Source: Mariniblastus fucicola (GTDB lineage: Bacteria > Planctomycetota > Planctomycetia > Pirellulales > Pirellulaceae). Taken from it: DNA of 64,000 nt. Of the stretch, positions 50,482 through 64,000 are shown piece after piece; within the stretch, counting starts at the first letter, position 1, and each line of letters opens with the position of its first letter. The stretch lies in the NCBI RefSeq assembly GCF_008087665.1, contig NZ_CP042912.1:4774001-4838000 (forward strand). The letters run 5' to 3'. A program made the position numbers and the translations under genes. The notes beneath the pieces were generated by a model, which saw only the letters and a program-made list of their open reading frames with translations, was not told the origin of the DNA and did no database searches.

Positions 50482-50560
50482 AAGTCTCGGCAACTGCGGA
50501 TAGCTCGCCTGCAGATTCAACATCCGTTTGCGGAATCGTTTCGCAAATATTGCGGAAACA

Positions 50561-50606
50561 CAAAGAAAAAAGCTCGTGAAAACCTTGAGGTCGTCACGAG
50601 CTTTCT
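50561..50606 (-). terminator. intrinsic terminator of the tRNA-Leu transcript
   Basis: On the minus strand, an 11-pair perfect stem (50594-50604 with 50569-50579) with a 14-base loop is followed by a T-rich run (TTTTTTCTTT). It lies four bases past the tRNA 3' end, as expected for the original tRNA unit. Confidence 0.85.
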
Positions 50607-50609
50607 AAG

Positions 50610-50665
50610 TACCGGCTAGAGGACTTGAACCTCCACTCCCAAAGGGAACTTGATTTTGAATCAAA
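50610..50665 (-). pseudogene. 3' fragment of tRNA-Leu(CAA), probable attachment site of the island
   Basis: Read on the minus strand, 50665 to 50610 forms the 3' half of a class II tRNA: a five-pair anticodon stem with loop TTCAAAA (anticodon CAA), a short GC-rich variable arm (TCCCTTTGGGA), a T-arm with loop TTCAAGT, and the 3' acceptor strand AGCCGGT plus discriminator A. No D-arm or matching 5' acceptor strand lies upstream (higher coordinates), where unrelated sequence begins at 50666. CCA is not encoded. A terminator follows. This is the usual scar of site-specific integration at a tRNA gene: the intact tRNA lies at the other end of the element. Confidence 0.82.
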
Positions 50666-50875
50666 CCGAAAAGCAATTCTGAATCAGCGTTTCAACCCGT
50701 TTTTTATCGAACGTAACAGATTATAGCATCGACAATTGAGCAGTGCAAACTGTTGCAAAAGGAAGCGGAAAAACGCGGTATTTGAAAACCAGTAAGAGTG
50801 CAAAAACAGTAGGGTACCGGAATTGCTTTTTCAATTTGTCACGCTGGACTTGGAATTGATATCTGACCAAACTCA

Positions 50876-51574
50876 TCAAGCAACCTTAGGGTCACCCTGT
50901 GATGCACCAACGATGCAACAAACGTGAATCAACATTGCCAGCGGCGTCAAGAACACAGTCATGATGCAAATCAAATAGCATACCGGCATGAAAAAAAACC
51001 AACAGATTCCATTGAAAACCTGGCCTTTGTACATTTGCCCCGCACCTGGGATCAGCAGGCTTAACAACGCCGCAATACCCGGACTCCAACGGTTGGGAGC
51101 GTTGGCGTATGCATAATGAGATCGATCTGCCCTATCAAGAATTTCATGGCAATGCTGACACTTTCTCGACGTTGGACGCACGTCGTTCTGGCAAAAACAG
51201 CACGTCCATGTATTGTTTTCGAAGTCAATAATCGCGTGAGTCGAGTTTAGCCAAGAATCACGTATTCTCTGTTCGGCAGCGAGACGTTCAAGCATAGCTT
51301 CATGCTCTCGGTAGGCATTCTCCTCCTTTTCCCTAGCGGCCTGCTTCTCAATTCGCTTCTTTGCTTTGGCCTGATCGATCAACTGGCAAAGCTTTGGATG
51401 TTTTGCCACATAAACCCATTGAGATCGCGTTCCTTGCGGACTCATCACCAAATCTTTTCTTTTCAGCGTCCCTTCGGTGAGCAAAGCTCTAAGCTGGCCT
51501 GTATCGATTGGCCCAACGGTTTTCGGATCGCCGATTGCCACTGCAAGTTGATAGTACCACTGCTGTTCGCTCAT
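50876..51574 (-). CDS. GYF-like domain/zinc-ribbon/membrane protein
   Basis: The preferred ATG at 51574 (GTG at 51580 is two codons further out) gives 232 residues. It starts with a GYF_2/DUF4339-like domain (QQWYYQLAVAIG, GPIDTGQLRALLTEG, WVYVAKHP), a basic charged helix (AKKRIEKQAAREKEEN), a zinc-ribbon (C-C-x-C-Q near 130; CQHCHEIL) and two C-terminal membrane helices of the TM2/DUF5362 type (IAALLSLLIPGAGQMYKG and FFFMPVCYLICIMTVFL). Such proteins are common in planctomycetes. It is the first gene inside the island boundary, though it might be chromosomal debris carried along. Confidence 0.72.
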   Translation of the reverse strand: MSEQQWYYQLAVAIGDPKTVGPIDTGQLRALLTEGTLKRKDLVMSPQGTRSQWVYVAKHPKLCQLIDQAKAKKRIEKQAAREKEENAYREHEAMLERLAAEQRIRDSWLNSTHAIIDFENNTWTCCFCQNDVRPTSRKCQHCHEILDRADRSHYAYANAPNRWSPGIAALLSLLIPGAGQMYKGQVFNGICWFFFMPVCYLICIMTVFLTPLAMLIHVCCIVGASQGDPKVA

Positions 51575-51725
51575 TGTCACTTTTCGGAATCCCCATCCCG
51601 AATGCGAATGTTACACAGGAAAAGCTTCGGCTTTATCTGCGGGCAAGTTTTCAGGAAAGCACGACTCTTTCCGGAATCTTATTTCTTTAGCTACCATTGC
51701 TATCAAACTCCGGCCAGCTAGAAAA

Positions 51726-51741
51726 GTGAACATGCGTTCAC
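51726..51741. promoter_or_regulatory. palindrome resembling a LexA (SOS) box
   Basis: GTGAAC-ATGC-GTTCAC is a 16-base palindrome whose core GAAC-N4-GTTC fits the Gram-positive-type LexA consensus. It lies 152 bases upstream of the GYF/zinc-ribbon gene start. LexA specificity in this organism is unknown, so this is only a motif match. Confidence 0.3.
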
Positions 51742-51862
51742 TCACGAAGCAAGCTTGAGGATAAGAAATATGTGAAACGGGTTTCAAAGCTGGATGTCGG
51801 ACTTAAACCATCTACGCCTATCGTTTTCGCCAGTCCCCCTCTTTGCCTCTCTGGCTTCCGTT

Positions 51863-52027
51863 TCAAGCTTGGCCAACGGTGTCATCGTCAGAGTAGGTTT
51901 TGAAGTGCCACGCGTGCCCTGGCGGATCAGTGCGGCGTTTACACTGCAGTTTTCCGTTTTGAGTAAGGTTGCGAACCTCAATCTTGGACCCCGCTGGTAT
52001 TAAATATTTGGCATTCCATTCTTGCAC
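51863..52027 (-). CDS. possible small protein, 54 residues
   Basis: A GTG at 52027 opens a 54-codon frame with natural-looking sequence (a W-N-A-K-Y start, YLIPAGSKIEVRNL, CKRRTDPPGHAWHF, ending DDDTVGQA). There is no good ribosome site, and no family is recognised. It may be a remnant of a longer gene. Low confidence. Confidence 0.25.
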   Translation of the reverse strand: MQEWNAKYLIPAGSKIEVRNLTQNGKLQCKRRTDPPGHAWHFKTYSDDDTVGQA

Positions 52028-52160
52028 TTACGCGGGACGTTTTGGCGGGCGTGCTCTTTACTCCAAGAATTCAATAGTGAAATTTTTACGTTGACTCATT
52101 AAAATACCGACAACATAACCCAGCCAGTAAGCATCTCTCAAACGTACACTCGGTGATAAA

Positions 52161-53075
52161 TTGGTATATTTCGCCCCTGAAAAGTCTATATTTAGCTGCG
52201 TCGCGAATGTCACGATTCGACTTGCGGTTTTGGTCATTGCTGTTGCATTCGCGTGTGAAGGACGAGTGTCGGGACAAGATCCAAAAATCATGGAACGTCT
52301 GAACGGTTCCCAAGCTTTTAACGCCGTATACGGTGAACGTTCAGGCTCCAGTGGTAGCGAAACACTATACGGCATGCGGGTGATGCAAATTCTCGGTGAA
52401 GACACGGCGCTGCTGACCGAGGGCGGGATGACATTCTATTACGAAGGAAGTACCGCTGGTTGGGTCGACGACATTACAATCCGAGAATTTCGACCAGTGA
52501 AATCTGCCGGGCGCACGACATACAACACGGTTATTGGTGGCACGAAGACAGTTCAAGTGCTTCGTGACTACAGCGACGCGGAGCGTGAAGCCAAGATTAA
52601 AGAATTGCAGACTGCGCACGTGCTGGCAAAAACGAAATTCAATGCTGTAATCGAGAAGCACGACAAAATCGACTTGAAGCTTTTCAATAGCATAACTGTT
52701 CTGCGAAAAGCTGACTTGATCGGAGTTAAGCAACCGAGATTGCTAGTGTTTGAAACTGAGGAAGCAGTTGTGTGGGTCGAGATGCGCAACCTACACGCAA
52801 AAACATTGCTCGGAATTGACAAAGTGCTTGGGTCGATTGCGACAACGTATCAACGGACTGGCGTTAGGTTCGAAGACGCGATGGACCTGCCGACAGAAGG
52901 TGACCGGAAGATGATTGGGCCTATTCGAAACCAGCTTCCTGTTTTATTTGAAGCAAAAGAAGACCAAGAGAAGGACGCATCCGACAAGAAAGACGACAAG
53001 AAAGACGACAAGAAAGACGACAAGAAAGACGACAAGAAAGACGACAAGAAAGACGACCCGCGGTTTCGCGCTTAG
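52161..53075 (+). CDS. secreted protein with C-terminal Lys-Asp repeats
   Basis: This 304-residue protein starts with TTG at 52161 and has a signal-like hydrophobic stretch (IRLAVLVIAVAFACEG, cleavage near SGQ). The middle (about 45-260) contains beta-rich segments (MTFYYEGSTAGWVDDITI, TVIGGTKTVQVLRDYSD) and a helical, SHD1/SLA1-like-sized part. The end is a perfect tandem repeat of Asp-Lys-Lys-Asp encoded by six identical 12-base units. The tail may be a surface-binding or calcium-binding linker; repeat number may vary between strains. No family is recognised for the body. Confidence 0.6.
   Translation: MVYFAPEKSIFSCVANVTIRLAVLVIAVAFACEGRVSGQDPKIMERLNGSQAFNAVYGERSGSSGSETLYGMRVMQILGEDTALLTEGGMTFYYEGSTAGWVDDITIREFRPVKSAGRTTYNTVIGGTKTVQVLRDYSDAEREAKIKELQTAHVLAKTKFNAVIEKHDKIDLKLFNSITVLRKADLIGVKQPRLLVFETEEAVVWVEMRNLHAKTLLGIDKVLGSIATTYQRTGVRFEDAMDLPTEGDRKMIGPIRNQLPVLFEAKEDQEKDASDKKDDKKDDKKDDKKDDKKDDKKDDPRFRA
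52983..53054 (+). repeat. six tandem copies of a 12-base unit
   Basis: The unit GACAAGAAAGAC repeats six times without a mismatch and encodes DKKD units. Identical units suggest recent slippage. Confidence 0.95.
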
Positions 53076-53363
53076 CCTTGGGGCTCAAGCTAAAACACTA
53101 CCGCGCATGGTCCCCAAACCCCCAACGTTTCTAGGGACGGACTGTATTTGAGTATTGCTGCGGCTTTCTGGGCCCGCTGTAGTGGTGAAACGCTCCGGAA
53201 GAATCCCGAAAACCTGACAGAATTAGCCATCACTGGCGAATGGCACTTAAAGCTTGCAAACTCCGTTGCATCGGTTAGTTATGTCATCTTGACGCACAGG
53301 GGCCTCACCTGCGATTGAGTGATTGGAATTTCGACGTTTCAATCGCCCAAGCAAGGAGGCCCC

Positions 53364-53837
53364 ATGTTCCGTCAATTCGATACGCTCCGTCATCGCGTTG
53401 CCGAGGCACGCAACAACGACAGCCTGTTTTTCGCATCGTTGCTCTCTGAGAAAACTATAGACAGTGTCTTTGGAGATGCAAAGGCGATACTTGACTCAGC
53501 ACAGATCTACACCACTGCTGTCACTCTCTGGGTGTTTCTTGCACAAGTCATGAGCATCAATCATGGCTGCGTTTCGGCGGTCGCCAAACTCGTCGCCTGG
53601 CGTGTGGTGAAAGGGCTCTCGCCATGCTCGGCCGCCACCGGCGCTTACTGCATCGCTCGTGACAAACTGGATGAGGAAGCCATGCAGCGGCTCGTGACCC
53701 AAAGCGGTGCAGCAATCCAATCACATACTCCCGATCATTGGCGATGGAAAAACCACCAAGTCATTGTTGCTGACGGAGCCACTGTCACGATGGCCGACAC
53801 CCCTGTGCCGCCGCCATCCCGGCTTCCCGTTCGTTAA
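53364..53837 (+). pseudogene. truncated IS4-family transposase (N-terminal part)
   Basis: The ATG at 53364 follows an AGGAGG-type ribosome site. The first 145 residues match the N-terminus of planctomycete IS4-family transposases (MFRQFDTLRHRVAEARN, LWVFLAQVMSINHGCVSAVA, ending VADGATVTMADTP). The sequence then breaks into a proline-rich tail (VPPPSRLPVR) that is not transposase, and the catalytic DDE core is gone. The break coincides with the end of a converging ClpP-like gene. It is a dead remnant, cut by insertion or deletion. Confidence 0.75.
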
Positions 53838-54430
53838 CGTGTGATGCGATCGATTAGCCCTAGCTGCTTGGCTTCGTCTGCGGTCATCCAACTATCAGTG
53901 GACAACAGTTGCTCAGCCTTGGCCGTGCCGCCGCGTACTCTGCGGGCGTAAGCTGTGAGCAACGTCTGCCGCATGCGTGACAATACCTCACGCTCGCTGT
54001 CACTGGCCGCGCCTCCGTCAATGTTTGGCTCGTGCACCATCAGTAAAGCATGGGGCGTGGCTTGGCGTACGTCGCATGCCATGAGGATATAAGAGCCAGC
54101 GCTATACGCGTTGCTCTCTACGATGCCGATCGTTTTGCTAGGCCATGCTGCAATCGCGTCGTGGATGCTTGTCGCTGTTGCAACGACGCCACCATGAGAA
54201 TCAATTCTGATCGTCAACGGTTGCGACTTGTCACACCAGGCCAAACCTTGAAGCCGTAAGCCGATGCTGAATCGATCTCGCCGAACAATGTGATTTCGTT
54301 TTGCTCAGTTGCGACTTCTGCAAACAGTGCTTTCGGTTCTCGGTTCGCGTTGCCGTCAGCTTGAGCCACAAACGACGCGCGTAGCTCAGGACGTGCCTTG
54401 TTGGCTGCAATGACTGCTGAGCCCCTGTCA
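53834..54430 (-). pseudogene. frameshifted phage ClpP-like head-maturation protease
   Basis: From 54244 to 53834 the frame encodes an S14/ClpP-like protease: DSHGGVVATATSIHDAI, ESNAYSAGSYILMACD with the catalytic Ser, ALLMVHEP with the catalytic His, and a C-terminal ADEAKQLGLIDRITR. Upstream on the same strand, the expected N-terminus continues in another frame (AVIAANKARPELRASF, ANREPKALFAEVATEQNEITLFGEID...GFK) up to about 54430, with the frame change near 54240. Still further upstream, a degenerate stretch repeats an ELR...AKANK motif. Phage proteases of this class process the capsid scaffold. The broken frame shows this part of the element is decaying. Confidence 0.7.
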
Positions 54431-54589
54431 TGCCTTTGGCCACGTTGGACGCGACAAGAGCCCTGAAAGCGTTAGCTATTGGTTGCTTGCCCTGTTGCCT
54501 GTGGCTTGTTGGCCTTGGCGATAAGATTCAACCTCAGCTCCGGATGGGTCCGGTTAGCCTGGGCGCGACGTCAAGACAGCCGGATTGAA

Positions 54590-55240
54590 TTAGCCGACGG
54601 TGGGGCGTTTTACGATCAAATATCTTAGAATTTGCATCTGCAATGGAAGAAAGTTGCCCTTCATGCAAGCAGCCATTAGATCGCCGTAAGCAGTCTTGGG
54701 GGCATCTCTGTTGGGACTTGGGTGAATGCGACATTGCGGACTCACGCCAAACCTCGCTAACGCGACTGCCCAGAGCATTCTTGACATTCGTCCATTGCCA
54801 TCACGAAACGGGTGGATCTGAATAAATCTCCCGACTAGCTCTCCAATGACTACTGCTAAATGATAGGCCCTTTGCTTCGGTTCTAAGGTGGGCCACTTAA
54901 TTTCAACGCTCAACGCGTTTGCCCTTGTATTTGAGAAAAGGGCTTCAGTATCACCTAAGACTTCTCGCGGGAGCGAACCTTGTATCCCGGCAACTCCGAC
55001 TGGATAATCAAGGCATGGACGATTCAAGTCAATCTGTCGAAAATTTCCAGCGTAGTACTCATATCCCGCGGGAGGGAGACCATCAAAAACTTCACCGTGC
55101 CATTCCTTGACATCGCCGAGTTCGATCATTTTCGACTTGGCAGTATCGATAGCAGATCGATAAACCACAACAAGTTTCGGCACGCACTTATCGAAGCCAT
55201 CGCTCGCGTTCCAAGCAGGGCAATTTTCAGTCGGTGACAA
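54590..55240 (-). CDS. Fic-domain protein (AMP-transferase-like), third gene of a module
   Basis: The 216-residue protein has the Fic active-site motif HPFRDGNGRMSR (H-x-F-x-D/E-G-N-G-R-x-x-R intact) at about residues 142-153, and the flap region (AGNFRQ) precedes it. Fic enzymes attach AMP (or other nucleotides) to hydroxyl groups of target proteins. I see no class II or III inhibitory motif [ST]-x3-E-[GN] in it. The start is TTG, overlapping the previous stop by 14 bases; an internal ATG in the MIELGDVKEW region is possible. Two smaller genes precede it in the same unit and may supply inhibition. Confidence 0.85.
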   Translation of the reverse strand: MSPTENCPAWNASDGFDKCVPKLVVVYRSAIDTAKSKMIELGDVKEWHGEVFDGLPPAGYEYYAGNFRQIDLNRPCLDYPVGVAGIQGSLPREVLGDTEALFSNTRANALSVEIKWPTLEPKQRAYHLAVVIGELVGRFIQIHPFRDGNGRMSRMLWAVALARFGVSPQCRIHPSPNRDAPKTAYGDLMAACMKGNFLPLQMQILRYLIVKRPTVG

Positions 55241-55541
55241 TGTCTTCCTCTACAAGTTGCTCAATCAGTTCGTCTGAAACTTCGCCATCAAAAGGACCAA
55301 TCTTTTCAAAATCTAAAACTGACAAGTCCGCGTCAGTAAAATCGAATTTCTGTTCAGATGCGTAAGCCTCCAATGCAGCAACCTTAGCTTGAAGATCTTC
55401 TTGACCCTCGAGCAACACTGCCGGTTCCGGAGAAGAATTCAACCCATTCGGCTGGATCAACTCAGGTGCATTGCCAAAATATACTCGTGGGCGACAAGCA
55501 TTGTAAGAATTCGGTCGCCGTCCAGTTGCGCGCCTATTCAT
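55227..55541 (-). CDS. small acidic protein, second gene of the Fic module
   Basis: This 104-residue protein has a basic N-terminus (MNRRATGRRPNSYN), a proline-containing linker and an acidic helical C-terminus (KVAALEAYASEQKFDF, SDELIEQLVEEDIVTD). It overlaps the upstream gene by 8 bases and the Fic gene by 14. The [ST]-x3-E-[GN] inhibitory motif of known Fic antitoxins is not present in the sequence. It is the most likely regulator or antitoxin by position, but the family is not recognised. Confidence 0.55.
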   Translation of the reverse strand: MNRRATGRRPNSYNACRPRVYFGNAPELIQPNGLNSSPEPAVLLEGQEDLQAKVAALEAYASEQKFDFTDADLSVLDFEKIGPFDGEVSDELIEQLVEEDIVTD

Positions 55542-55893
55542 TGAGGTCCTCGTTTCTTTCGATTAAGCCGTCTTTTGCTGCTGCTTCAAGCCGTTCCTGT
55601 AGCCATTTGGAAAGTTCGACCGCGGTATCCAAGCCTAAAACCAAGTTAGCCTCGACATCTCTAATCACGCCCGTCTTTCCTTCACGTCGCAATTCTTTAG
55701 TTAACACGCCGTCCTGTGTCTCCATCACTAATAATTTTGGGATTGCGGAACGCTCGGAGTAGACCGTTAGATGAAGATTTCCATCTCCTCCAACTCCGCC
55801 AAAAATCCCGTCGCAATGAATTGAACGAAACTGATTGCTCTTGAGAAAGTGAAACTCAATCTCGGATTTTTTTGATTCGTCAGGTTCGTTCAT
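55534..55893 (-). CDS. small protein of unfamiliar family, first gene of the Fic module
   Basis: The ATG at 55893 (an upstream in-frame start at 56019 adds 42 residues) gives 119 residues. The core strand EFHFLKSNQFRSIHCDG with GGVGGDGNLHLTVYSERSAIPKL, then VEANLVLGLDTAVELSKWLQERLEA, reads like a compact alpha/beta domain; its strand-helix layout is reminiscent of DUF3467-type proteins, which I cannot verify. Similar sequences turn up on mobile elements in my memory. It leads the Fic module and overlaps the next gene. Confidence 0.6.
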   Translation of the reverse strand: MNEPDESKKSEIEFHFLKSNQFRSIHCDGIFGGVGGDGNLHLTVYSERSAIPKLLVMETQDGVLTKELRREGKTGVIRDVEANLVLGLDTAVELSKWLQERLEAAAKDGLIERNEDLNE

Positions 55894-56354
55894 AATTTGG
55901 TATTTACCTTGCTGTCTAAACAAGGAGGGAGTCAAACTATTGGCACTATTAAAAAATAGCACGCAGGGGAAATCAGGGCGCGAATGGTCAACAAGATTGA
56001 GACAAAACGCAGACAGCACGGTTCAGTTACATTAGTCAGTTGATTATTGACAGACAGATACGAAGCAACAAGTTGCCTAAATGCCTCCTCGAACGCGTGT
56101 CTGTCTTTACACAGTACCGCCGGTAAAATTTGGCACAGAGAGCCCGGAAATGGCCCAGAACGCTCTATCGGCGGCAAACCCGGATATCTAAAGCGGTACC
56201 TTAAAAAGCCCTTAAACCTGCCCTGCGAAGCGCAGGAAAGGCTGTTTGAGATAAGGGGCAAGGCAAAGAATCTTCCAAAAAGTAAGACAGGAAACCAGAA
56301 AGTTGGCTACGCAGCACTTAACGATTGTGATGTCTCAGCCGTTTTGGCTTTGTC
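55894..56354. other. intergenic region, no confident gene
   Basis: About 460 bases between the Fic module and the next minus-strand gene. A minus-strand frame (55932-56261) and a plus-strand frame (56047-56475) exist but have unconvincing composition. It probably contains the Fic module promoter. A small hairpin (CCTGCG-CTT-CGCAGG on the minus strand) lies at 56222-56236. Confidence 0.4.
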
Positions 56355-56678
56355 TCAAATCAGCACAAACCGTGTCCGCACGAACCACGGTAGGTTGCGC
56401 GATTGCCACGTTCCCGCCGCAGCCTTCTCATTGCGCCCCCCCAAAAACAACGCGTTGAGATCATCGCAGCGGTAGAGCCTCTTACCGACCAGAGTGACAT
56501 ATTCAATATCAGATTTGGCAAGAGCGTCTTGCAGTGCGCGAGGGTGCTTCAATCTAAGTTCCGCCGCGAGTCGGTCACCGGTAATGAAACCAGTCGCCGG
56601 AATAAAGCCAAGAGATGCGTCTGGCTGTTTGGCTGAAGCGATGCGGGAATCGTTTGCAGAATTCGCGTCGGCAATCAT
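56355..56678 (-). CDS. small DNA-binding-like protein of the satellite operon
   Basis: This 107-residue protein has a helical core (GDRLAAELRLKHPRALQDAL) followed by a strand pair (YVTLVGKRLYRCDDLNALF) that resembles winged-helix or excisionase-type folds. Its ATG overlaps the stop of the 58-residue gene upstream in an ATGA, so both are co-translated. It is the last gene of the long leftward operon. Function unknown; a regulatory role is possible. Confidence 0.5.
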   Translation of the reverse strand: MIADANSANDSRIASAKQPDASLGFIPATGFITGDRLAAELRLKHPRALQDALAKSDIEYVTLVGKRLYRCDDLNALFLGGRNEKAAAGTWQSRNLPWFVRTRFVLI

Positions 56679-56851
56679 GCGAGTGCCTTTCTGCCGAATT
56701 GGATCGGCAAATCAGAAGCGTCTCGCATCGGCCACTCTAACGCGTATGACAGCGCGGAGCCGTTACCGGTAATCCATACCCGATGCGAGACGCTTCCTGA
56801 TTTGGCAGCGTCAAAACTTTTAGATGTCAAACTTTTAGAGATTGCAATCAT
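56675..56851 (-). CDS. small protein, 58 residues, upstream of the last satellite gene
   Basis: A clean ATG at 56851 opens a 58-residue frame, too short for many gene finders, ending in an ATGA overlap with the next gene. The sequence looks protein-like (MIAISKSLTSKSFDAAKSGS, VWITGNGSALSYALEWPMRDASDLP, ending GRKALA), and codon usage matches its neighbours by eye. A 26-base inverted repeat lies inside it. No family is recognised. Confidence 0.55.
   Translation of the reverse strand: MIAISKSLTSKSFDAAKSGSVSHRVWITGNGSALSYALEWPMRDASDLPIQFGRKALA
56706..56806. repeat. long interrupted inverted repeat inside the 58-residue gene
   Basis: 56706-56731 and 56780-56806 are near-perfect inverted copies (one extra base and one two-base mismatch). 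The 48-base loop between them holds the palindrome TTACCGGTAA (56763-56772). The mRNA or DNA could form a large hairpin. Chance origin inside coding sequence cannot be excluded. Confidence 0.75.
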
Positions 56852-56902
56852 CGGTTATTTAGCCCTCGCTTGTCAAATGCCCACAAACCAAACGTCATAC
56901 TT

Positions 56903-57142
56903 TCAATTGTCGCTAGGCTCTTTGCTTTGCATTCCTCGCAGAACAATGCGGGCCATGTGAGCGGCGACAGCTTCCGAGTCAATAGTGCTATCAGCCTTAC
57001 CACCGAGGAACAAATCCGTTTGATGCTTTAACCATGCGGGCGATTTTGAAACGCCAGAAGCGTCGATCGCCAGTTCGCAAAGCGTTAGCTTCTCAATCTC
57101 GGAAAGCTCATTCCGCCAATGGTGCGGCATCACGTCAGTCAT
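56903..57142 (-). CDS. small hypothetical protein of the satellite operon
   Basis: The ATG at 57142 (a start at 57157 would add five residues) gives 79 residues: MTDVMPHHWRNELSEIEK, a helical LTLCELAIDASG stretch, and a C-terminal helix (SEAVAAHMARIVLRGMQSK). There is no recognisable domain. It starts 39 bases downstream of the coiled-coil gene's stop, on the same strand. Confidence 0.5.
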   Translation of the reverse strand: MTDVMPHHWRNELSEIEKLTLCELAIDASGVSKSPAWLKHQTDLFLGGKADSTIDSEAVAAHMARIVLRGMQSKEPSDN

Positions 57143-57181
57143 ATTACCACTAATCATTTCGTTCCAATCTTTGTTGCTGCT

Positions 57182-59086
57182 TCACTCAATCGCTTCCGTA
57201 ACAGGTCGGCGGGCGAGGCTTTCAAGGGCGCGAGTCGTCGCCGCTGTGCTTTTGCTTTGTTGCTGAATCGCGCCGGTTTGCTTTTTCACTTCGGCAACCA
57301 TCGTTGCGGTTTGCTGCCCGGTTTGTCGTTGCTCATTGGTCAGGATTTGGAACGCCGACCCAACGCCACCACCCGCGAACGTGTTCGCCGCGGCGGCCCC
57401 CAACCCGGAAACGTCGAAGTCTTTCGCGACTTCGACAGCGCCAACCAATCGATTCACCGCGAACCGCCCCAACGGTCCGGCACCACCCTTGGTCGCTTCC
57501 GCTTCGACTCGGTCGCGTGCAGACGCGCGACGCGATTCGCCAGTGCTGTAAGCATTCTCGGCGGCAATCTCGCGTGCGATTCGATCCGACGTCGCTTTGA
57601 AGTCGGCCGCACTTCGATCAACGGAAAAGTACGCGTTCAGTCGCCGCGAAATCAAACTGTCATCGGTGCCCGCTTTTCGCGTTTCGCTTACGATTGTGCG
57701 GTTCACTTTGTTAATGTTGCCTAGCCGCTGCGTCGCCACGGTGAACGCTGTGAGGACTTCTTTGTTCCCTCCGGTAATCTTTTCGCGAAGTTCCTTGTTA
57801 TCGGCTGTTGACAGCGACTGGACGATTTGAGGCAACGATTGCGACAACGTATCGATGTTCTTCTGAACTGCCGCCCGGTCTTGTGGCGTCTTTGCTTCGC
57901 CCAACGCGTTTCGCTGGTTGATCAGTTCCGCGCCCAAGTTCGCTTGCAAGGTCCGAACGTACGTTCCGGTACGGTCGCCAAATTGCGCACCCAGAACAGA
58001 AACGAACGACGCGACGTCGGCGGCTTTGACGCCGGGAAGTAACGCCGAACCCTGCGCGGCGGTTCGAATTTGCGGCTGGATTTCCTGAACGTTAAACTTC
58101 GACGTTCCCGACGCAGCAAGTCCCAAGTTCAACGCCTGATTCGCGGTTAGGTTTTCCTTCGCGAACACCTTGCGGAATTCGCCAACGAGTTTGGAACCAA
58201 TGTTTGCGGGAATGACGCGGTCGGCGCGTAGGATCGTTTCGAAGTCTTTTTCGACTTCGTTGGAAATCGCGTCGAACAAAACTTGCCCGACTTTGCTTCG
58301 CTCCGTCGCGTACTTTACGGCGGCTTCGTCAACGCGTTGCGAACGGCTTTGGAAGTTCGTTTCGTCAGAAACTTGAAGTAGCGACGTTCGCGATTCTCGC
58401 AAGCTAACCGTTTGGTCGCGTCCCTTTTTCTGTTCTTCGCGAAACTCTTGATAAGCCCTGCGAACCGCCGACACTGCCGACGTAACCGACAACACGCCCG
58501 CCGCGTAGGACGCAACCGACGCCAAGGCTTTCGAGCCGAACGGGTTCCCGTCGCGAACGTTCTTTTGTTCTGCGTCGAGCGCGTGCAACGATTGTTTGTA
58601 GTCTTTCGCGCCGATCTTCCCGCTATCAAATGCAGCTTTCAGTGCGGCCCGAAGTTCGCGATGTTTATCCGCGAGCGACTGCGTTGCAGCAACCAGTCGT
58701 TTCGATTCGGCGACGCCCTTTTTGATTTCCGCTTGTTCGGCTTTGTAAGCGTCGGTCGAAGTCCGTTTCACTTCCGCAAGATTGGCGAGCCGTTCACGTT
58801 CCGTCGCCACCAGTTTGCGAATACCGTCGCGTGCCATCTTCGCCGATTCGGCGTCGGTTTGCCCCAACGTTCGCAGCGCCTTGATGCGTTCGCGTAGAAT
58901 CTGCTTTTGTGAACGCTGGTTGCGAAGTACGTTTTTGGCTTGGCGTAGCTGCGTCTTTTCGAGCTTCAACGTTGCGTCGACGACGCCTTTGATTGACTTC
59001 TCGTTCGCTTCAACAAGCTTACGTTCTTCGGCCAGTTTTCTTTGAACTTCGTCGTCGTCCAAAGTGAATTTGATTTTCGCTGTCAT
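57182..59086 (-). CDS. large coiled-coil protein, tape-measure-like candidate
   Basis: The 634-residue protein starts with a long charged helix (DDDEVQRKLAEERKLVEANEKSIKGV, repeated LEKTQLRQAKNVL and so on). It contains a hydrophobic alanine-rich stretch near 190-215 (LASVASYAAGVLSVTSAVSAVRRA) typical of membrane-active or tail-tape proteins, and ends with a glycine-rich linker and a helical tail. Length and composition fit a phage tail tape-measure or lysis/adaptor protein in an element otherwise lacking capsid genes. It follows the two terminase-like genes with a five-base gap. The family call is tentative. Confidence 0.5.
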   Translation of the reverse strand: MTAKIKFTLDDDEVQRKLAEERKLVEANEKSIKGVVDATLKLEKTQLRQAKNVLRNQRSQKQILRERIKALRTLGQTDAESAKMARDGIRKLVATERERLANLAEVKRTSTDAYKAEQAEIKKGVAESKRLVAATQSLADKHRELRAALKAAFDSGKIGAKDYKQSLHALDAEQKNVRDGNPFGSKALASVASYAAGVLSVTSAVSAVRRAYQEFREEQKKGRDQTVSLRESRTSLLQVSDETNFQSRSQRVDEAAVKYATERSKVGQVLFDAISNEVEKDFETILRADRVIPANIGSKLVGEFRKVFAKENLTANQALNLGLAASGTSKFNVQEIQPQIRTAAQGSALLPGVKAADVASFVSVLGAQFGDRTGTYVRTLQANLGAELINQRNALGEAKTPQDRAAVQKNIDTLSQSLPQIVQSLSTADNKELREKITGGNKEVLTAFTVATQRLGNINKVNRTIVSETRKAGTDDSLISRRLNAYFSVDRSAADFKATSDRIAREIAAENAYSTGESRRASARDRVEAEATKGGAGPLGRFAVNRLVGAVEVAKDFDVSGLGAAAANTFAGGGVGSAFQILTNEQRQTGQQTATMVAEVKKQTGAIQQQSKSTAATTRALESLARRPVTEAIE

Positions 59087-59090
59087 TGCT

Positions 59091-59525
59091 TCACTTCACT
59101 TCTCTTTGAAAGAAATTTTCTTGAATCTGTTCAAACTTGGTTAATGCATCGTTCAATAAAGCCGCAGCGTCTCTGCCGCGGAGCGAGCTTGCCAAGCCAA
59201 GCGTTGTCCCCATTTCTCGCATCGGTGCTGCCGATGCCATCATTGCTGCTTTTAGCTCAGCGATCGGCACCGAGGCGCCGGCCTGCTGATCGTTCTTCGC
59301 GTCATTAAGCTGGCGCCTCGCTACGATGTATTCCAGCTTTAACTGCTTCAGTTGCTCCGCAGTCGAATCCTCGTCGATCTCGCGTAAGCAGTGCTTCACC
59401 AGTTCACGCAAGTCACATTTTCTTGTCTTGTCAGACGCGGCGAGCCCCATCTGCTTGAACCACGTTTTTGGTTTCCCAATCAACTGGGCTGCTTTTGCAA
59501 TTGAAACGTTGAAGCGAGTACTCAT
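59091..59525 (-). CDS. terminase-small-subunit-like (Nu1-type) HTH protein, copy 2
   Basis: This 144-residue protein has an N-terminal winged-helix-like start (VSIAKAAQLIGKPKTWFKQMG) as in phage Nu1/terminase small subunits and DUF1441-like proteins, then a long helix (EDSTAEQLKQLKLEYIVARRQLND) and a C-terminal helical part. It resembles the neighbouring upstream protein in order and length, so the two are likely duplicates. Its ATG overlaps the upstream stop by four bases. Nu1-like proteins bind packaging sites in phage DNA, which would suit a satellite that packages into a helper phage. Confidence 0.55.
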   Translation of the reverse strand: MSTRFNVSIAKAAQLIGKPKTWFKQMGLAASDKTRKCDLRELVKHCLREIDEDSTAEQLKQLKLEYIVARRQLNDAKNDQQAGASVPIAELKAAMMASAAPMREMGTTLGLASSLRGRDAAALLNDALTKFEQIQENFFQREVK

Positions 59526-59947
59526 TGACCGGTTCCCTCAGCTGACAATTCCGCGTCGATCTCTCTGAGTTCGTTATTCACCATCTTTTGGAACTCAATG
59601 CCGGGCAACGATTCAATTTTTTTGAAACGCTCCAGAACGCCTGTCAAGCGATCGATGATGTAACGCCGTAATTCGACGACTTGAACCACCGAAACCGCTG
59701 AGCGTTGAATCGAGTCGTTCGCCAATTCAACTTTTCGGATTCGAGATTTGAGCAAAGCGATTTCTTCGGCCCGTTGTTGCGCGCTGTTGTCAGGGTCAAG
59801 CTTCGCCAAGAACCACGGGATCACGATTGCTGCGTCGTAGGCTCCACAATCCATGCGGGGTGCTGGATTATCACGAAGCCAAATTGATGGCTTCCCCAGA
59901 ATCTGAGCCATGTCGGATTGATTGAATTTGAATTGGGTCGATTTCAT
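59522..59947 (-). CDS. terminase-small-subunit-like (Nu1-type) HTH protein, copy 1
   Basis: The ATG at 59947 gives 141 residues with the same opening as its neighbour (FNQSDMAQILGKPSIWLRDN), an early proline-containing turn, a long helix (DNSAQQRAEEIALLKSRIRKVELAND) and a C-terminal helical domain. It follows the iteron-like repeats and directly precedes its paralogue. Either the pair form a hetero-oligomer or one regulates the other. The Nu1-like assignment is by motif and layout only. Confidence 0.55.
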   Translation of the reverse strand: MKSTQFKFNQSDMAQILGKPSIWLRDNPAPRMDCGAYDAAIVIPWFLAKLDPDNSAQQRAEEIALLKSRIRKVELANDSIQRSAVSVVQVVELRRYIIDRLTGVLERFKKIESLPGIEFQKMVNNELREIDAELSAEGTGQ

Positions 59948-60070
59948 TTTGGTAACCAAAGGGGGAGAGCTAAAAAACGCAATTTTTGGAAAAATGTTAG
60001 TCGGTGGGAGCTTCGCTCCGTGATGCGTCCCGCCCCCATTCAGGGAACCTAAACGCTTCGTCGATTAAAC

Positions 60071-60223
60071 TGGACCATCTGGACCTAAACGTCCCATCGT
60101 TTCGTCGGACCATCTGGACCTAAACCGGCGATGGTCCACCGGGTCTGGACCATTTGGGTTAAACGCCATATACGCTCTCGTGTAAGCACTTAACTGCAAT
60201 GGTCCAGACCATCCGGACCAAAC
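60071..60223. repeat. four iteron-like direct repeats
   Basis: Copies of TGGACCATCTGGACCTAAAC start at 60071, 60106 (one mismatch), 60145 (degraded) and 60205 (degraded, AGACCATCCGGACC). ATGGTCCA inverted cores occur at 60131 and 60200. They fill the non-coding gap between the primase gene and the Nu1-like genes and could be a replication origin or operator set. Confidence 0.7.
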
Positions 60224-60234
60224 ACTTTTGAGCC

Positions 60235-62661
60235 CTAAAAAACCGATGTTTTGTCGCACTCGTGGAGCTTCAAGCCGACAAACACGGACCGGTTGCGATA
60301 CGGCAATGCACGGCATTTGGTACGTTTGTAGGTCAGTTCCATCGAATTTCGGAATTCAGACTGGACCATTTTGCCGTTCCACTGTTTGTACAAAGCGTAC
60401 GCATCACTAACAGGAATCATGCCTTCCGGGTCAGTGCTGTCGAGCTTGTCAGACACGAAATTGGCGATCTCGTCTTCGTTGTTTCGATACTCACTCGTGG
60501 CTTGTTTCACGCGTTCCGGCTCATAGGTATCGAGTCCATTCTTTTGGTACATCTGCCACCCTTCGATCGCCCAATTGAGAATGCCCGAATACTCCGCTTT
60601 GAGCTTCTCTTTGAACTGCTTGTCCACGTTGCCGCCAAGCTTCTCGCGAAGATCGACTTCGAATGGGATGAGCTTCACGCGTCGCCAAATCCCTTCGTCG
60701 TCTCCGCTAATCTTCGGCTTGTGATTTGTCGACAACCAAAACGTGTGCGTCTGCCTGAACTCCCAAAAGTCTTCACGCATCCGTCGCGCCTTCCCGACCG
60801 CATCGCCGGTCCATTCTTTGACCCGACTTTCCATCAGCTGGCAGCCTTTGCCCGGTTCCGAGATTGGAACGAACCGCTTCGCGAACAAGTCAGCAAGCCC
60901 AGTCGGATGTTGGTTTCGGCTCACCATCAGCAAATCGGCGTTACCAATTTCGGCGTAATCCCCCATGATGTCGTGAATAGTGTTCCAGACAGTCGATTTG
61001 CCGTTGCTTCCCCCGCCATAGCAAATTGGCAAAATGTGTTCGTCACGCGTCCCTGAGAGCGTGTAACCGAACAGCACTTGAACGTACCGAATCAATTCTT
61101 CATCGCCGTCGAAAATTAGCTTCAACGACTCTCGCCACAACGGGCATTGAGCCGACGCGTCAAAGGAGACGCCGGAAATTTGCGTAATCAAATCTTCGCG
61201 TTGCGAGTCACGAAGCTCGCAGTTCTGCAAATCGAACGTTCCATTGAGGCAGTTGAAAAGCAAGTCTTCCGAGTCGAGGCTTTTGTGATCAATCGTGACG
61301 CGTTTGTCACTCTGCGACAGCGTCCGAATGGCGATTATCGACGATGCTGAGTTTGAGCTTTTAACAAATCGTAACGTCCCCGCAGGGTCGTCACTCTTTC
61401 GCATCTCCTTTGTTCGTTCCCATAATTGTTCGGCGTAACGTCGCACCAACGCGTTGGTTCCGGCGTTTGAGGCGTCAATTTTCCATCGCTTGCCGCTCCA
61501 ATAAATCCATTTTCCCCAACTTACAACGAAGCGAAGATCGTCACCGAATTCGTCAACGAATCGCCTTGCGTTTGCGTTGTCAGTTCTGCCAGCCTGCTTG
61601 TTGATTCCGACAGCAGTTCTGACGCGTTTCTTGGTGGTCGTATCGATTTCTTTAGTGGCTACATTGGAATTGTCTTTGGTCATGCAGTTCTTAATTTCTT
61701 CGTCTTCGCAATCGAATAGTTCGTCAGGGTCGACCGGCTCTGGCAAGTCCACAACGCCCCGGTTCATGCGTTCGCGGTGGATCGTCGCCACGGTCAACCC
61801 CGTGTCGTCGTTGGCGTCGAACGACTTCCAACGTTCCGCGATGGCGTCGCCGTGCCTGGCATACGCCGGGTCGGACGTCGACCACTGGATGAACGCTTCG
61901 AGCCCTTCGCCACTTCCGCCCGTCGCGTGATGCGATCCGGCGAACAACTTGAACCATTCTTCATGCGTGTTGAATTCGCACGCCGATAGCGGCTTGAGCA
62001 AGTCGGCCAATTCGACGCCCGTCAGCTTGTCCGCTGTCGACTTGGTGGCGGTCTTGCGTTCTTCCTTGCGAATTAGGTTTAAGAGCGCCGCCGGGGCTTG
62101 GGGGCGTTCGTAGCCGAACATTTGCGTAAAGTCGCTGAACCGATACTTCCCGCCTTGCCAATGAGCCGAACCAGCAATCACGACCAACCCGCCGTGCGAT
62201 TTGATGTCGATGTCGGGAAAGCCTTCGATAACGTTTTTGAACTTCAACCCTTCCGGCACTGTCAGGTAGTATTGCCGCCCGCCGGTCGGCGATTCAACGC
62301 ACGGCGCGATGTCCTCCAACGGCTGGGGCAACAACGCGTTAAGCTTCGCGAGTGATTCCATGCCCTGTTTGTTGGGACGTTCCTTCGTCGGCACGTCCAC
62401 GTCGATGACAAGGTCGCACGGCCCAAGCGCCCACCCGATGCCGTGTTGCTGTTCGCGGTATAGCCTCAACGTGTCGACGTCGTGGTCGGTCGTTTGCCAG
62501 CCTTTAAGCAATGGGGTTTTTGCCTTCTTATCGCCGATGTGTTGGCGACGTTTCAGCGGGAACAAACGGGCGGCGTATTGCTCAATGTAAATGCTAATTG
62601 AATCGCTCACTTCATCGGAAGGGCGCCGATCGCCGCTAATTTGATCGGTGAACCAATTCAT
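60235..62661 (-). CDS. bifunctional primase-polymerase and SF3 helicase
   Basis: The 808-residue protein has an N-terminal primase-polymerase (PrimPol, PF09250-type) domain (about 45-230; KTPLLKGW, metal-binding D87/D89 in LVIDVDVP, HGGLVVIAGSAH with a catalytic His). A PriCT-like linker follows, then a C-terminal D5/P4-type SF3 helicase with Walker A GGGSNGKST and K555, and WLSTNHKPKISGDDEGIWRR as sensor region. This combination runs DNA priming and unwinding in phage satellites and integrative elements. It is downstream of a zinc-ribbon protein gene with a four-base overlap. Confidence 0.85.
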   Translation of the reverse strand: MNWFTDQISGDRRPSDEVSDSISIYIEQYAARLFPLKRRQHIGDKKAKTPLLKGWQTTDHDVDTLRLYREQQHGIGWALGPCDLVIDVDVPTKERPNKQGMESLAKLNALLPQPLEDIAPCVESPTGGRQYYLTVPEGLKFKNVIEGFPDIDIKSHGGLVVIAGSAHWQGGKYRFSDFTQMFGYERPQAPAALLNLIRKEERKTATKSTADKLTGVELADLLKPLSACEFNTHEEWFKLFAGSHHATGGSGEGLEAFIQWSTSDPAYARHGDAIAERWKSFDANDDTGLTVATIHRERMNRGVVDLPEPVDPDELFDCEDEEIKNCMTKDNSNVATKEIDTTTKKRVRTAVGINKQAGRTDNANARRFVDEFGDDLRFVVSWGKWIYWSGKRWKIDASNAGTNALVRRYAEQLWERTKEMRKSDDPAGTLRFVKSSNSASSIIAIRTLSQSDKRVTIDHKSLDSEDLLFNCLNGTFDLQNCELRDSQREDLITQISGVSFDASAQCPLWRESLKLIFDGDEELIRYVQVLFGYTLSGTRDEHILPICYGGGSNGKSTVWNTIHDIMGDYAEIGNADLLMVSRNQHPTGLADLFAKRFVPISEPGKGCQLMESRVKEWTGDAVGKARRMREDFWEFRQTHTFWLSTNHKPKISGDDEGIWRRVKLIPFEVDLREKLGGNVDKQFKEKLKAEYSGILNWAIEGWQMYQKNGLDTYEPERVKQATSEYRNNEDEIANFVSDKLDSTDPEGMIPVSDAYALYKQWNGKMVQSEFRNSMELTYKRTKCRALPYRNRSVFVGLKLHECDKTSVF

Positions 62662-63146
62662 TGATTCACCCCGATTTCCGTCTGGTTTATCGGTTGCGTA
62701 GGCCTAACAACCATCCGCCCCGGTTTGACGCAGTGGCGCTTTTTTGGGTCGACGCTAATCCAGTAGTTTCTACTGCCGCGACCGCAATCACTAACGCGAG
62801 ATTCAACGTGCGTGTGATCGTGTCTTGAATCCCAAGAATGACGATGCTTTCGATCACAGATCGGGCATCGCACCACAAGTTGGCAACGAGTCGATTCGTA
62901 TTCCGGGTGCCCTTGGATCGGCCGAAAATTTGTGTCGCTTGGGTAATAAATTTTCAGGACGCCGCGCGCGACCTTTCGGTTCCTCGCTGGCTCGATCGGA
63001 AGCCGAAGAAATTCTGGCGTCTCGATCGATTTGGCAGGTCGAGAGGCTCTACCGGGCGGTTGATCCTTGAAGCGTCGACCCTTTTTATACGCCGCTTCAA
63101 GTTCAACTTTTCTTGCTTCGTGTTCGTTGTTTGGTATACTTTTCAT
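62658..63146 (-). CDS. zinc-ribbon protein upstream of the primase
   Basis: The 162-residue protein is basic, with an N-terminal charged helix, an EFLRLPIEPARNRKVARGVL segment, and a zinc-ribbon-like CPICDRKHRHSW with a second cysteine pair expected in SDCGRGS...KKRHC. It overlaps the primase ATG by four bases (ATGA). Such proteins may be replication accessory factors. The family is not recognised. Confidence 0.55.
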   Translation of the reverse strand: MKSIPNNEHEARKVELEAAYKKGRRFKDQPPGRASRPAKSIETPEFLRLPIEPARNRKVARGVLKIYYPSDTNFRPIQGHPEYESTRCQLVVRCPICDRKHRHSWDSRHDHTHVESRVSDCGRGSRNYWISVDPKKRHCVKPGRMVVRPTQPINQTEIGVNQ

Positions 63147-63159
63147 GTCAAATTCCTAA

Positions 63160-63197
63160 GCCGTCCCGACGCTTCGCCAGATGTCGGGCGGCTTTTT
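63160..63197 (+). terminator. hairpin upstream of the primase operon
   Basis: A stem of 10 pairs with one bulge (63160-63170 with 63183-63192), an 11-12-base loop and five T residues on the plus strand. It sits 13 bases upstream of the zinc-ribbon protein start (on the minus strand), so it may block transcription coming from the left or regulate the leader. Confidence 0.5.
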
Positions 63198-63254
63198 GTG
63201 TTGCGGTTTCGGATTATTTGAAGTCGCCACCCAAAATCGCGTCTATCGGCTCGA

Positions 63255-63419
63255 TCAACCATTCGCCAAAATGAAGTCGATGATTGTCTTTCCAAGGACA
63301 TAGCCTTGCCGTCCGAAGTACTTCACTTCCAGACCGTTTCGGCGGGCATGCCGCGATGCGTTTAGATCCCTTCGGATTCCAGATACGCTTCGGTATCGCT
63401 TGCTGATTGGCTCACGCAC
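63255..63419 (-). CDS. small DNA-binding-like protein, 54 residues
   Basis: A GTG at 63419 opens a 54-residue frame ending at TGA 63255. The core (DLNASRHARRNGLEVKYFG, then RQGYVLGKTIIDFILANG) is typical of small planctomycete DNA-binding domains with a helix followed by a Y-x-x-G-R-x-x-Y-V strand. Its start overlaps the DUF1580-type gene's end by 58 bases in another frame, which is unusual and leaves the exact start open. Too short for many gene finders. Confidence 0.5.
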   Translation of the reverse strand: MREPISKRYRSVSGIRRDLNASRHARRNGLEVKYFGRQGYVLGKTIIDFILANG

Positions 63420-63691
63420 TGAGCTGCTGGGCCGTCCGACTCAAAGAACGCCAGCAAAGCTTCGACGGTTGTTACGCGCCGCCCGCCAACTTTTATCGTG
63501 GATAGAATGCGCCCGCCGGAGCCTCGCGTTGTCCACCGAAACACGGTGCTTCGATTCGGCTGGAATCCGCAGTGTTCGGAAACCCATGCAGGGACTTTGG
63601 AAATTGGGACGGGTGTCTCTGCTAACAAATTGATCACGGCAACAATCCTTAAAAAGTTCTGTCTTGTTGCTGTAGTATTCGTTTGAGTCAC
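63362..63691 (-). CDS. DUF1580-type excisionase-like DNA-binding protein
   Basis: The 109-residue protein has the planctomycete DUF1580 pattern: ISKVPAWVSEHCGFQPNRSTVFRWTTRGSGGRILSTIKVGGRRVTTVEALLAFFE, a helix-turn-helix followed by a GGRR-T-x-x-x-L wing. Family members are common on mobile elements and resemble recombination directionality factors or regulators. It lies before the short DNA-binding gene and primase operon on the same strand. Confidence 0.72.
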   Translation of the reverse strand: MTQTNTTATRQNFLRIVAVINLLAETPVPISKVPAWVSEHCGFQPNRSTVFRWTTRGSGGRILSTIKVGGRRVTTVEALLAFFESDGPAAQCVSQSASDTEAYLESEGI

Positions 63692-63751
63692 CGGCTTTGA
63701 ATAGCCTTATTGACGCCTCAAATGAGCAATGTCACTTAATGTCAGTTGCGG

Positions 63752-64000
63752 TCACTTCTTTTTTAATCCCCGCAGCTCGGGCGCGGCCAAGTCAACCCAA
63801 TAGAAGTTTCCTTTGGATCTATAAATGAACGGTTTGTCATCCCGTTTTGACCAATCCCGAATCTGTTTCGGCGAAAGATGGAATTTGTCTTGGATATCTT
63901 GAGACTTATATTCGGCGATTGATTCAAGTGGCTTTCTCGCCGCATCGGGCATCTCTACCGCGCCCCCAATCAAACCAGTATCGCGGTTGAAGTCCCACTC
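63752..64000 (-). CDS. partial small protein at the right window edge
   Basis: The frame is open to position 64000, so the protein is incomplete. Visible residues read EWDFNRDTGLIGGAVEMPD, then a helix-turn-helix-like stretch (DIQDKFHLSPKQIRDWSKRD) and a strand (KPFIYRSKGNFYWVDLAAPELRGLKKK). A TTG start at 63973 within it is possible. The stretch from DKFHLSPKQIRDW to YWVDLAAP suggests a DNA-binding regulator of the element. Confidence 0.5.
   Translation of the reverse strand, partial: EWDFNRDTGLIGGAVEMPDAARKPLESIAEYKSQDIQDKFHLSPKQIRDWSKRDDKPFIYRSKGNFYWVDLAAPELRGLKKK

Follow-up and report, generated by a model that had tools for sequence, protein, structure and literature searches.

Organization of the locus

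The window, i.e. the whole 64,000-nt stretch of DNA analysed here, carries on its minus strand, at 50609-50664, positions 29-84 of a tRNA-Leu(CAA). This fragment comprises the anticodon arm, the long variable arm, the T-arm and the 3' acceptor strand. The initial annotation had placed it at 50610-50665 and had rightly noted that the D-arm is missing and that a strong terminator lies behind it. The exact block common to the fragment and the intact gene described below is 50607-50664 (58/58 bases) and contains the last 56 nt of tRNA-Leu(CAA) and 2 trailing nucleotides. The features of the region are as follows; positions above 64000 lie outside the window and continue its numbering.

about 50559-50606, minus strand: host terminator of tRNA-Leu(CAA), displaced from its gene; hairpin and T-run, found by alignment immediately after the tRNA of two relatives, G006 (86%) and G012 (84%)
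50607-50664, minus strand: 3' fragment of tRNA-Leu(CAA), which is the attachment-core copy on the chromosomal side (scar); 58/58 identical to the end of the intact tRNA at 65697-65754
50665-64000, no strand assigned: part of the element inside the window; integrase, leader and intact tRNA follow beyond the window end
50692-50713, minus strand: block conserved with the scar-side arm of the related element in genome G001; 22/22 identical in the arm alignment
50720-50748, minus strand: promoter-like site TTGCAC-17-TATAAT, facing outward from the element towards the scar; 1% of shuffles score as high
50800-50826, minus strand: degenerate form of the leader palindrome on the scar side; aligned with the intact palindrome of G001, palindrome scan negative here
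50876-51580, minus strand: ORF of 234 aa; weak GYF_2 and TM2-like matches, below the curated cut-offs
53319-53837, plus strand: N-terminal fragment of an IS4-family transposase; NCBIfam NF033592, E 8e-14, profile 1-123 of 332, below cut-off
53834-54244, minus strand: remnant of a ClpP-like phage head-maturation protease; phrog_94 E 5.9e-31, PF00574 E 2.2e-22, NF045542 profile 33-165 but under its cut-off
54590-55240, minus strand: Fic/DOC-family protein; PF02661, 41.3 bits (cut-off 24)
57182-59086, minus strand: 634-aa protein shared with the G001 element only (2/60 genomes, own and G001); 27% identity by tblastn
59522-59959, minus strand: small protein with a weak terminase-small-subunit match; phrog_57 E 0.0092, counterpart in G001 E 0.0013
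60235-62661, minus strand: P4-family primase-helicase (Prim-Pol, PriCT_2, D5_N); TIGR01613, 246.8 bits (cut-off 108.7)
63362-63691, minus strand: DUF1580 protein; PF07618, 40.2 bits (cut-off 24.4), counterpart in G001
64417-65562, minus strand, outside the window: tyrosine integrase of 381 aa; PF00589, 49.9 bits (cut-off 27.1), phrog_1 E 3.1e-26
65563-65698, minus strand, outside the window: structured leader between the integrase gene and the intact tRNA

ARAGORN called zero tRNAs across the 64,000 nt, and an Rfam scan of the window gave zero matches at the gathering score. Hence the intact tRNA gene is absent from the window. When the own genome (G000, a single 6.57-Mb contig) was searched with 161 bp, two matches were obtained, namely the query site itself and one other of 61 bp (98%, E 1.3e-23) on the same strand at G000:C1:4839694-4839754. 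At this position ARAGORN identified an intact tRNA-Leu(CAA) on the minus strand (65699-65782 in the window frame, G000:C1:4839699-4839782), which sits 15,090 bp to the right of the scar on the same strand. The initial annotation had read the fragment as an integration scar at the left end of an element and had suggested a search beyond 64000 for an intact gene with an identical 3' part and an integrase beside it. Both are present on the expected strand, with 58/58 identity and an adjoining tyrosine integrase gene that starts 136 nt behind the tRNA 3' end. The two contrary findings named there, a lack of an intact tRNA-Leu(CAA) beyond 64000 and a tRNA interrupted by an assembly error at 50666, did not appear.

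Unoccupied and occupied sites in relatives

The tRNA-Leu(CAA) and the integrase were each sought in the same 60 genomes. In G006 and G012 the matched part of the tRNA is 100% identical, and the integrase search gave no match. Directly behind the tRNA, G006 has sequence 86% identical to window positions 50559-50664 and G012 has sequence 84% identical to 50553-50664, in both cases covering scar and terminator. Judged by these alignments, the two loci are the unoccupied site of the element, as the comparison with relatives proposed in the initial annotation had anticipated. The tRNA is also found in G016 (99%), with no integrase match and a different sequence behind it, and in G027 (89%), with no terminator match. 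A permease gene beyond the intact tRNA was found in G001 (54%), G006 (52%) and G016 (70%), while the contig of G012 ends just past the tRNA. To the left, the chromosome beyond the terminator shows no conservation: none of six host proteins encoded there was matched in the eight relative loci compared. Consequently, only the terminator ties the left side of the site to these relatives.

G001, which belongs to the same genus as the window genome, carries a related element in the same tRNA, with an integrase 73% identical and the 56-nt scar at 98%. Counterparts of the DUF1580 protein (46%), the 634-aa protein (27%) and a 145-aa protein (22%) are present. The cargo of this element further includes a second integrase and a DNA methyltransferase, and its primase-helicase is a different one.

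Bacteria can carry tandem or degenerate tRNA copies, and on this general ground the fragment could be a tRNA-like stretch that arose by chance, or a second tRNA-Leu(CAA) gene in decay, and have nothing to do with an element. This is very hard to reconcile with the 58/58 bases shared with an intact gene that lies 15 kb off next to an integrase, with a single tRNA followed by the same terminator in both G006 and G012, and with the sister element in G001, and we consider it extremely improbable. The locus shows an intact tRNA at one end, a 3' fragment in the same orientation at the other, a tyrosine integrase inside and relatives with an unoccupied site, which together characterize a tRNA-integrated genomic island. 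That a 15.1-kb mobile element is inserted in the tRNA-Leu(CAA) gene, with the scar as its far end, is thus nearly certain. As an event, such a scar is ordinary textbook integration.

G053, from another family of the order, has a tRNA-Leu(CAA) at 85% (G053:C154:11667-11750) and a 3' fragment (query positions 31-84) at 84% (G053:C241:7070-7124), possibly a further element at this tRNA.

Gene content of the element

Altogether 21 ORFs were scanned, 20 against Pfam, 20 against PHROGs and 9 against NCBIfam. The initial annotation expected phage-like genes to the right of the scar. This holds for the P4-family primase-helicase and the ClpP-like head-protease remnant, but no convincing match to a capsid, portal, large terminase or tail gene was found among the 21 ORFs. 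The protease remnant is without the start of the profile and appears broken; a possible N-terminal part lies in another frame. The position of the DUF1580 protein suggests an excisionase or a regulator. An impression of the 634-aa protein as tape-measure-like was supported by no library. At 52161-53075 on the plus strand, a 304-aa ORF ends in a DKKD-type repeat and has no family match; it is possibly a cargo gene.

A relaxase, type IV secretion or conjugation gene was not matched among the ORFs scanned against Pfam and PHROGs, and on this ground a reading of the element as an integrative and conjugative element (ICE) was dropped. A full prophage would account for the head-protease remnant, the P4-family primase and the weak terminase-small match. 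Beyond this broken remnant and the weak match, no structural gene was convincingly matched among the 21 ORFs, 15 kb is short for a prophage, and the 11 ORFs scanned from the G001 element likewise gave no structural match beyond the weak terminase-small (E 0.0013). The complete prophage was therefore discarded as an improbable reading. Because its phage content is thin (the P4-family primase and the broken protease remnant), the element looks satellite-like or decayed, which fits the predicted gene content better. It contains broken genes and may have lost its mobility. Packaging-interference or capsid-size genes gave no match in the 21 ORFs, in a scan that remote homologues could escape.

Integrase family and its tRNA targets

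A profile of 13 integrases detected 267 relatives in named genomes, the best 80 being retained for analysis, and 75 in IMG/VR. Cultured carriers among the named genomes include Bythopirellula polymerisocia Pla144 and Adhaeretor mobilis HG15A2. A co-oriented tRNA lies 104-176 nt ahead of the integrase match at 59 of these best 80 relatives (58/73 with at least 350 nt upstream), and an opposed tRNA at 0/80. By a simple pattern, a tRNA T-arm box was found just before the leader in 7 of the 15 remaining loci with enough upstream sequence, which fits tandem or hybrid attachment sites; L093 shows nothing of this kind. In L084 and L094, and also in L073, L116, L121, L128 and L139, what looks like a tRNA 3' fragment and not an intact tRNA precedes the leader, an arrangement expected of tandem insertions or hybrid attachment sites. 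From IMG/VR, 72 of the 75 loci were examined (L193, L217 and L219 were left out), and 9 have a co-oriented tRNA (5/52 with at least 350 nt upstream). The integrase is a member of a planctomycete family that sits beside 24 tRNA anticodons (14 amino acids).

For an integrase tree, 55 of 60 integrases were used, open frames of less than 300 aa being dropped. The target labels need 41 changes on this tree, a rough count because about half of the inner branches are weakly supported (23/52 open). Since the minimum possible is 23 and shuffled labels need 44.5 on average (as low in 2/200 shuffles), the tRNA targets are only slightly clustered on the tree. L134 and L137, both from Candidatus Laterigemmans baculatus JC640, are near-identical integrases at tRNA-Arg(TCG) and tRNA-Arg(CCG), suggesting a very recent change of target. 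At about 869000-899000 of G041:C1, three family integrases lie within about 30 kb, two of them equal-scoring and facing each other.

Within the sequence available for each locus, downstream tRNA 3' fragments delimit the elements of L086, L087, L100 and L198 (4/54 loci). A further scar search succeeded for 5 of 10 tRNA-region pairs, i.e. L045, L046, L047, L053 and again L087; for L038, L043, L048, L049 and L052 there was no scar within 5-20 kb. With the window element and that of G001, ten elements are mapped. In the five regions of the further search, the stretch of identity opens with base 1 of the anticodon loop, which has seven bases, judging from the tRNA ends.

Predicted structure of the integrase leader

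The stretch from the tRNA to the integrase is alike across the family regardless of the tRNA. It contains P0, a small stem; PA, a stem that typically reads CTGCCGA-CGG-TCGGCAG; PB, a palindrome with the typical form CAAAACGGTA-nn-TACCGTTTTG; and PC, a long-range stem in which bases after PA pair with bases before the integrase start codon. From 118 leaders, 104 remained at 90% identity; 67 were taken into an arm-pairing test and 64 used. L093, L121 and L127 were dropped for the G-U test (61 left), and L104 and L136 in addition for an alignment termed A4 (59 left). No recognisable leader is present in L093 and L127. L127 and L130 are integrase relatives whose leaders are clearly different from those of the family and similar to each other. 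In L048, tRNA-Met is immediately followed by a hairpin and T-run that precede the leader, which looks like a terminator kept or regained.

In the 64 leaders, each arm pairs better with its own partner than with the arms of other loci, with z values, inflated since the leaders are related, of -10.2 (P0), -16.9 (PA), -16.3 (PB) and -7.2 (PC) and 0/2000 permutations for each stem. Three wrong-arm controls gave z values of -1.0, 0.2 and -1.9, the last being borderline (reached by 59/2000). In A4, a sequence-only alignment of 59 leaders, PA and PB are paired in 94.5% of the cells, and 15 of 17 pairs have changed on both sides; 0/500 shuffles came near this covariation, nor did any slid version. PC and P0, whose offsets vary, were left out of this count. 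RNAalifold, unaided, proposes the same two stems PA and PB. An interpretation of the leader as a conserved RNA structure is thus supported by covariation.

An RNA of the integrase strand should contain G-U pairs in excess of A-C mismatches, and such an excess is observed on the sense strand in 61 leaders for PA (23:3) and PC (39:14). This evidence is moderate, because the one background computed, from swapped PA arms, also favours G-U (877:514). P0 (9:7) and PB (8:14) are without excess. In 52 of 59 leaders, the last 12 bases and the AUG are predicted to be less accessible than with shuffled upstream sequence (mean unpaired probability 0.37 vs 0.51). For the leader of the window element, the predicted fold pairs the ribosome site and the AUG (-68 kcal/mol, z -8.9 vs 200 shuffles); five other leaders gave folding z values of -1.9 to -4.0.

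The leader alone served to build a covariance model (R1), with which 119 genomes of the phylum were scanned; 12 of them, the own genome included, gave matches at 14 places, 2 of which are in the training set. At ten of the 12 non-training places the leader is immediately preceded by an intact co-oriented tRNA, at one (L239) by a tRNA fragment and at one (L243) by no tRNA; a family integrase lies directly behind at 11, with no match at one (L251). On 16 integrase loci, Rfam gave only tRNA matches at the gathering score, which places the leader outside the known Rfam families.

Palindrome and promoter-like site on the scar side

The leader palindrome is also found in scar-side arms, partly identified by eye. 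It is intact in G001, L086, L100 and L046, interrupted in L087 and represented by half-sites in L198 and L053. In the arms of L045 and L047 it was not evident in a scan that was likewise partly by eye. Common words of right-arm and left-arm palindromes are slightly longer within than between elements (9.5 vs 8.0), a weak difference. Since the palindrome recurs in scar-side arms and has no G-U bias, a DNA site is suggested. The integrase or its helper probably binds there, and an arm-type integrase site is the simplest reading.

The same recurrence (G001, L086, L100, L046 and, spaced, L087) and the missing G-U excess of PB (8:14) would also agree with leader features that are DNA sites only, i.e. 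arm-type integrase sites and an operator. Their symmetry would then come from binding of a dimeric protein, and the integrase would be controlled by transcription alone. For a dimer site, however, there is no need for PC to span the palindrome and the ribosome site. Moreover, on the integrase strand G-U is favoured over A-C in PA and PC, and the predicted accessibility is lower in 52 of 59 leaders. We therefore regard an explanation by DNA sites only as doubtful and prefer a palindromic DNA site embedded in a leader that presumably acts as RNA.

In the scar-side arm, a sigma-70-like site faces the scar, composed of a TTGCAA-like hexamer, 16-18 nt and a TAnnnT-like hexamer. G001, whose cargo differs from that of the window element, has TTGCAT-17-TATATT at the same distance, inside a stretch around the site that the two elements have in common. 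In 9 of the 10 mapped elements the best-scoring promoter-like site is 75-85 nt from the scar; in the tenth, L198, it is elsewhere. Both position and score were matched by 1 of 105 random windows, while the score alone is not unusual in 4 of the 10 elements, G001 included (shuffle fractions 0.25-0.32). In a second set of seven scar-side arms, 2/7 have a site at that distance with a score of at least 9. As long as the element is integrated, this promoter-like site is directed at the displaced terminator. We propose that it would drive the integrase gene when the ends are joined in a circle.

Proposed mechanism of integration and integrase control

According to the explanation that we favour, the anticodon loop of tRNA-Leu(CAA) is where the tyrosine integrase recombined the 15.1-kb element into the gene. 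A 3' half brought in by the element restored the tRNA at the right end, whereas the original 3' half and its terminator were pushed to the left end, as the positions of the two copies show. The integrase gene consequently lies 136 nt behind the tRNA on the same strand, without the tRNA terminator; the comparison with G006 and G012 demonstrates this displacement, which is one feature of the ICEKp1-type switch. From its position, the scar-side promoter-like site could reach the integrase only in the circle, across the attachment site. Since the predicted leader fold pairs the ribosome site and start codon of the integrase, read-through from the tRNA promoter would give little integrase. Thus, integrase would be made from the circle and be restrained by the leader after insertion. 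We assign this explanation as a whole, with its conditional steps worded as such, a probability of roughly 0.85. For its control part, circle promoter and leader restraint, the chances appear about even.

Alternatively, the leader stem-loops might mainly stop transcription coming from the tRNA instead of acting on translation. Attenuation of transcription is described for the integrase 5' leader of ICEKp1 in the accessible part of that report (PMC13023037). The planctomycete leaders inspected have no clear T-run behind their hairpins, and the leader structure ends at the start codon, which argues against attenuation and makes it the less likely main function.

If the restraint on translation is correct, the family would share a portable control module, in which a tRNA core is combined with a far-end promoter active only in the circle and an RNA leader that hides the integrase start under the captured tRNA promoter. 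Because the tRNA core would travel in the module, the tRNA target could be changed almost freely (24 anticodons, at least 41 label changes, 55 integrases), even between near-identical integrases. For such a family-wide module we see as much reason to accept it as to doubt it. As sequence and structure, the exposed control module is well supported; its mechanism is putative.

These results bear on two questions, how elements in tRNA genes avoid constant integrase production from a captured tRNA promoter and by what route a single integrase family comes to use another tRNA. Dozens of natural replicates of both are available in this family, and alignment A4 and covariance model R1 are ready for tests. 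In the open-licence literature, outside which most subscription papers lie, we found no report of planctomycete integrase islands or of structured integrase leaders at tRNA genes.

Comparison with known systems

P4-like phage satellites have a P4-family primase, a tyrosine integrase at a tRNA and a size near 15 kb. The window element resembles them in all three respects (primase TIGR01613). Unlike them, it has no recognised packaging-interference or capsid-size gene, and it is not assigned to this group.

In tRNA-integrated islands as defined by Islander (PMC4383910), an intact tRNA and a displaced 3' fragment in the same orientation likewise bound an interval with a tyrosine integrase. The available part of that paper also describes an anticodon class of crossover sites, to which the crossover in the anticodon loop corresponds. 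As far as this part goes, nothing essential separates the window element from these islands, and it is one more of them. For mycobacteriophage Ms6, the attP core decides which tRNA genes are used, according to the title of the report (PMC1762012). Ms6 is a single, engineered phage in that work, whereas here one integrase family is found at many tRNAs.

In ISPpu9, the 5' leader of the transposase can fold over the ribosome site, as stated in the accessible text (PMC8450116). In both cases the gene of a mobile-element enzyme has a 5' leader that can be folded in this way; ISPpu9, in contrast, is described there as an insertion sequence with a transposase and two small RNAs, and no tRNA is involved.

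Parallels in integrase control are found in ICEKp1, ICEclc and ICEEc1. For ICEKp1 a state-dependent switch of the integrase promoter was shown experimentally and examined in other ICEs, according to the part of the report at hand (PMC13023037). Like these elements, the window element has its integrase behind the tRNA on the same strand (136 nt here vs 161 bp in ICEKp1), a displaced tRNA terminator, stem-loops in the integrase 5' leader and, from sequence, a putative far-end promoter facing the attachment site. It differs in that it is not an ICE, no conjugation gene being recognised. Whereas the effect described for the ICEKp1 leader in that part of the report is attenuation of transcription, the planctomycete leader is conserved across the phylum with covariation and is predicted to cover the ribosome site and the AUG.
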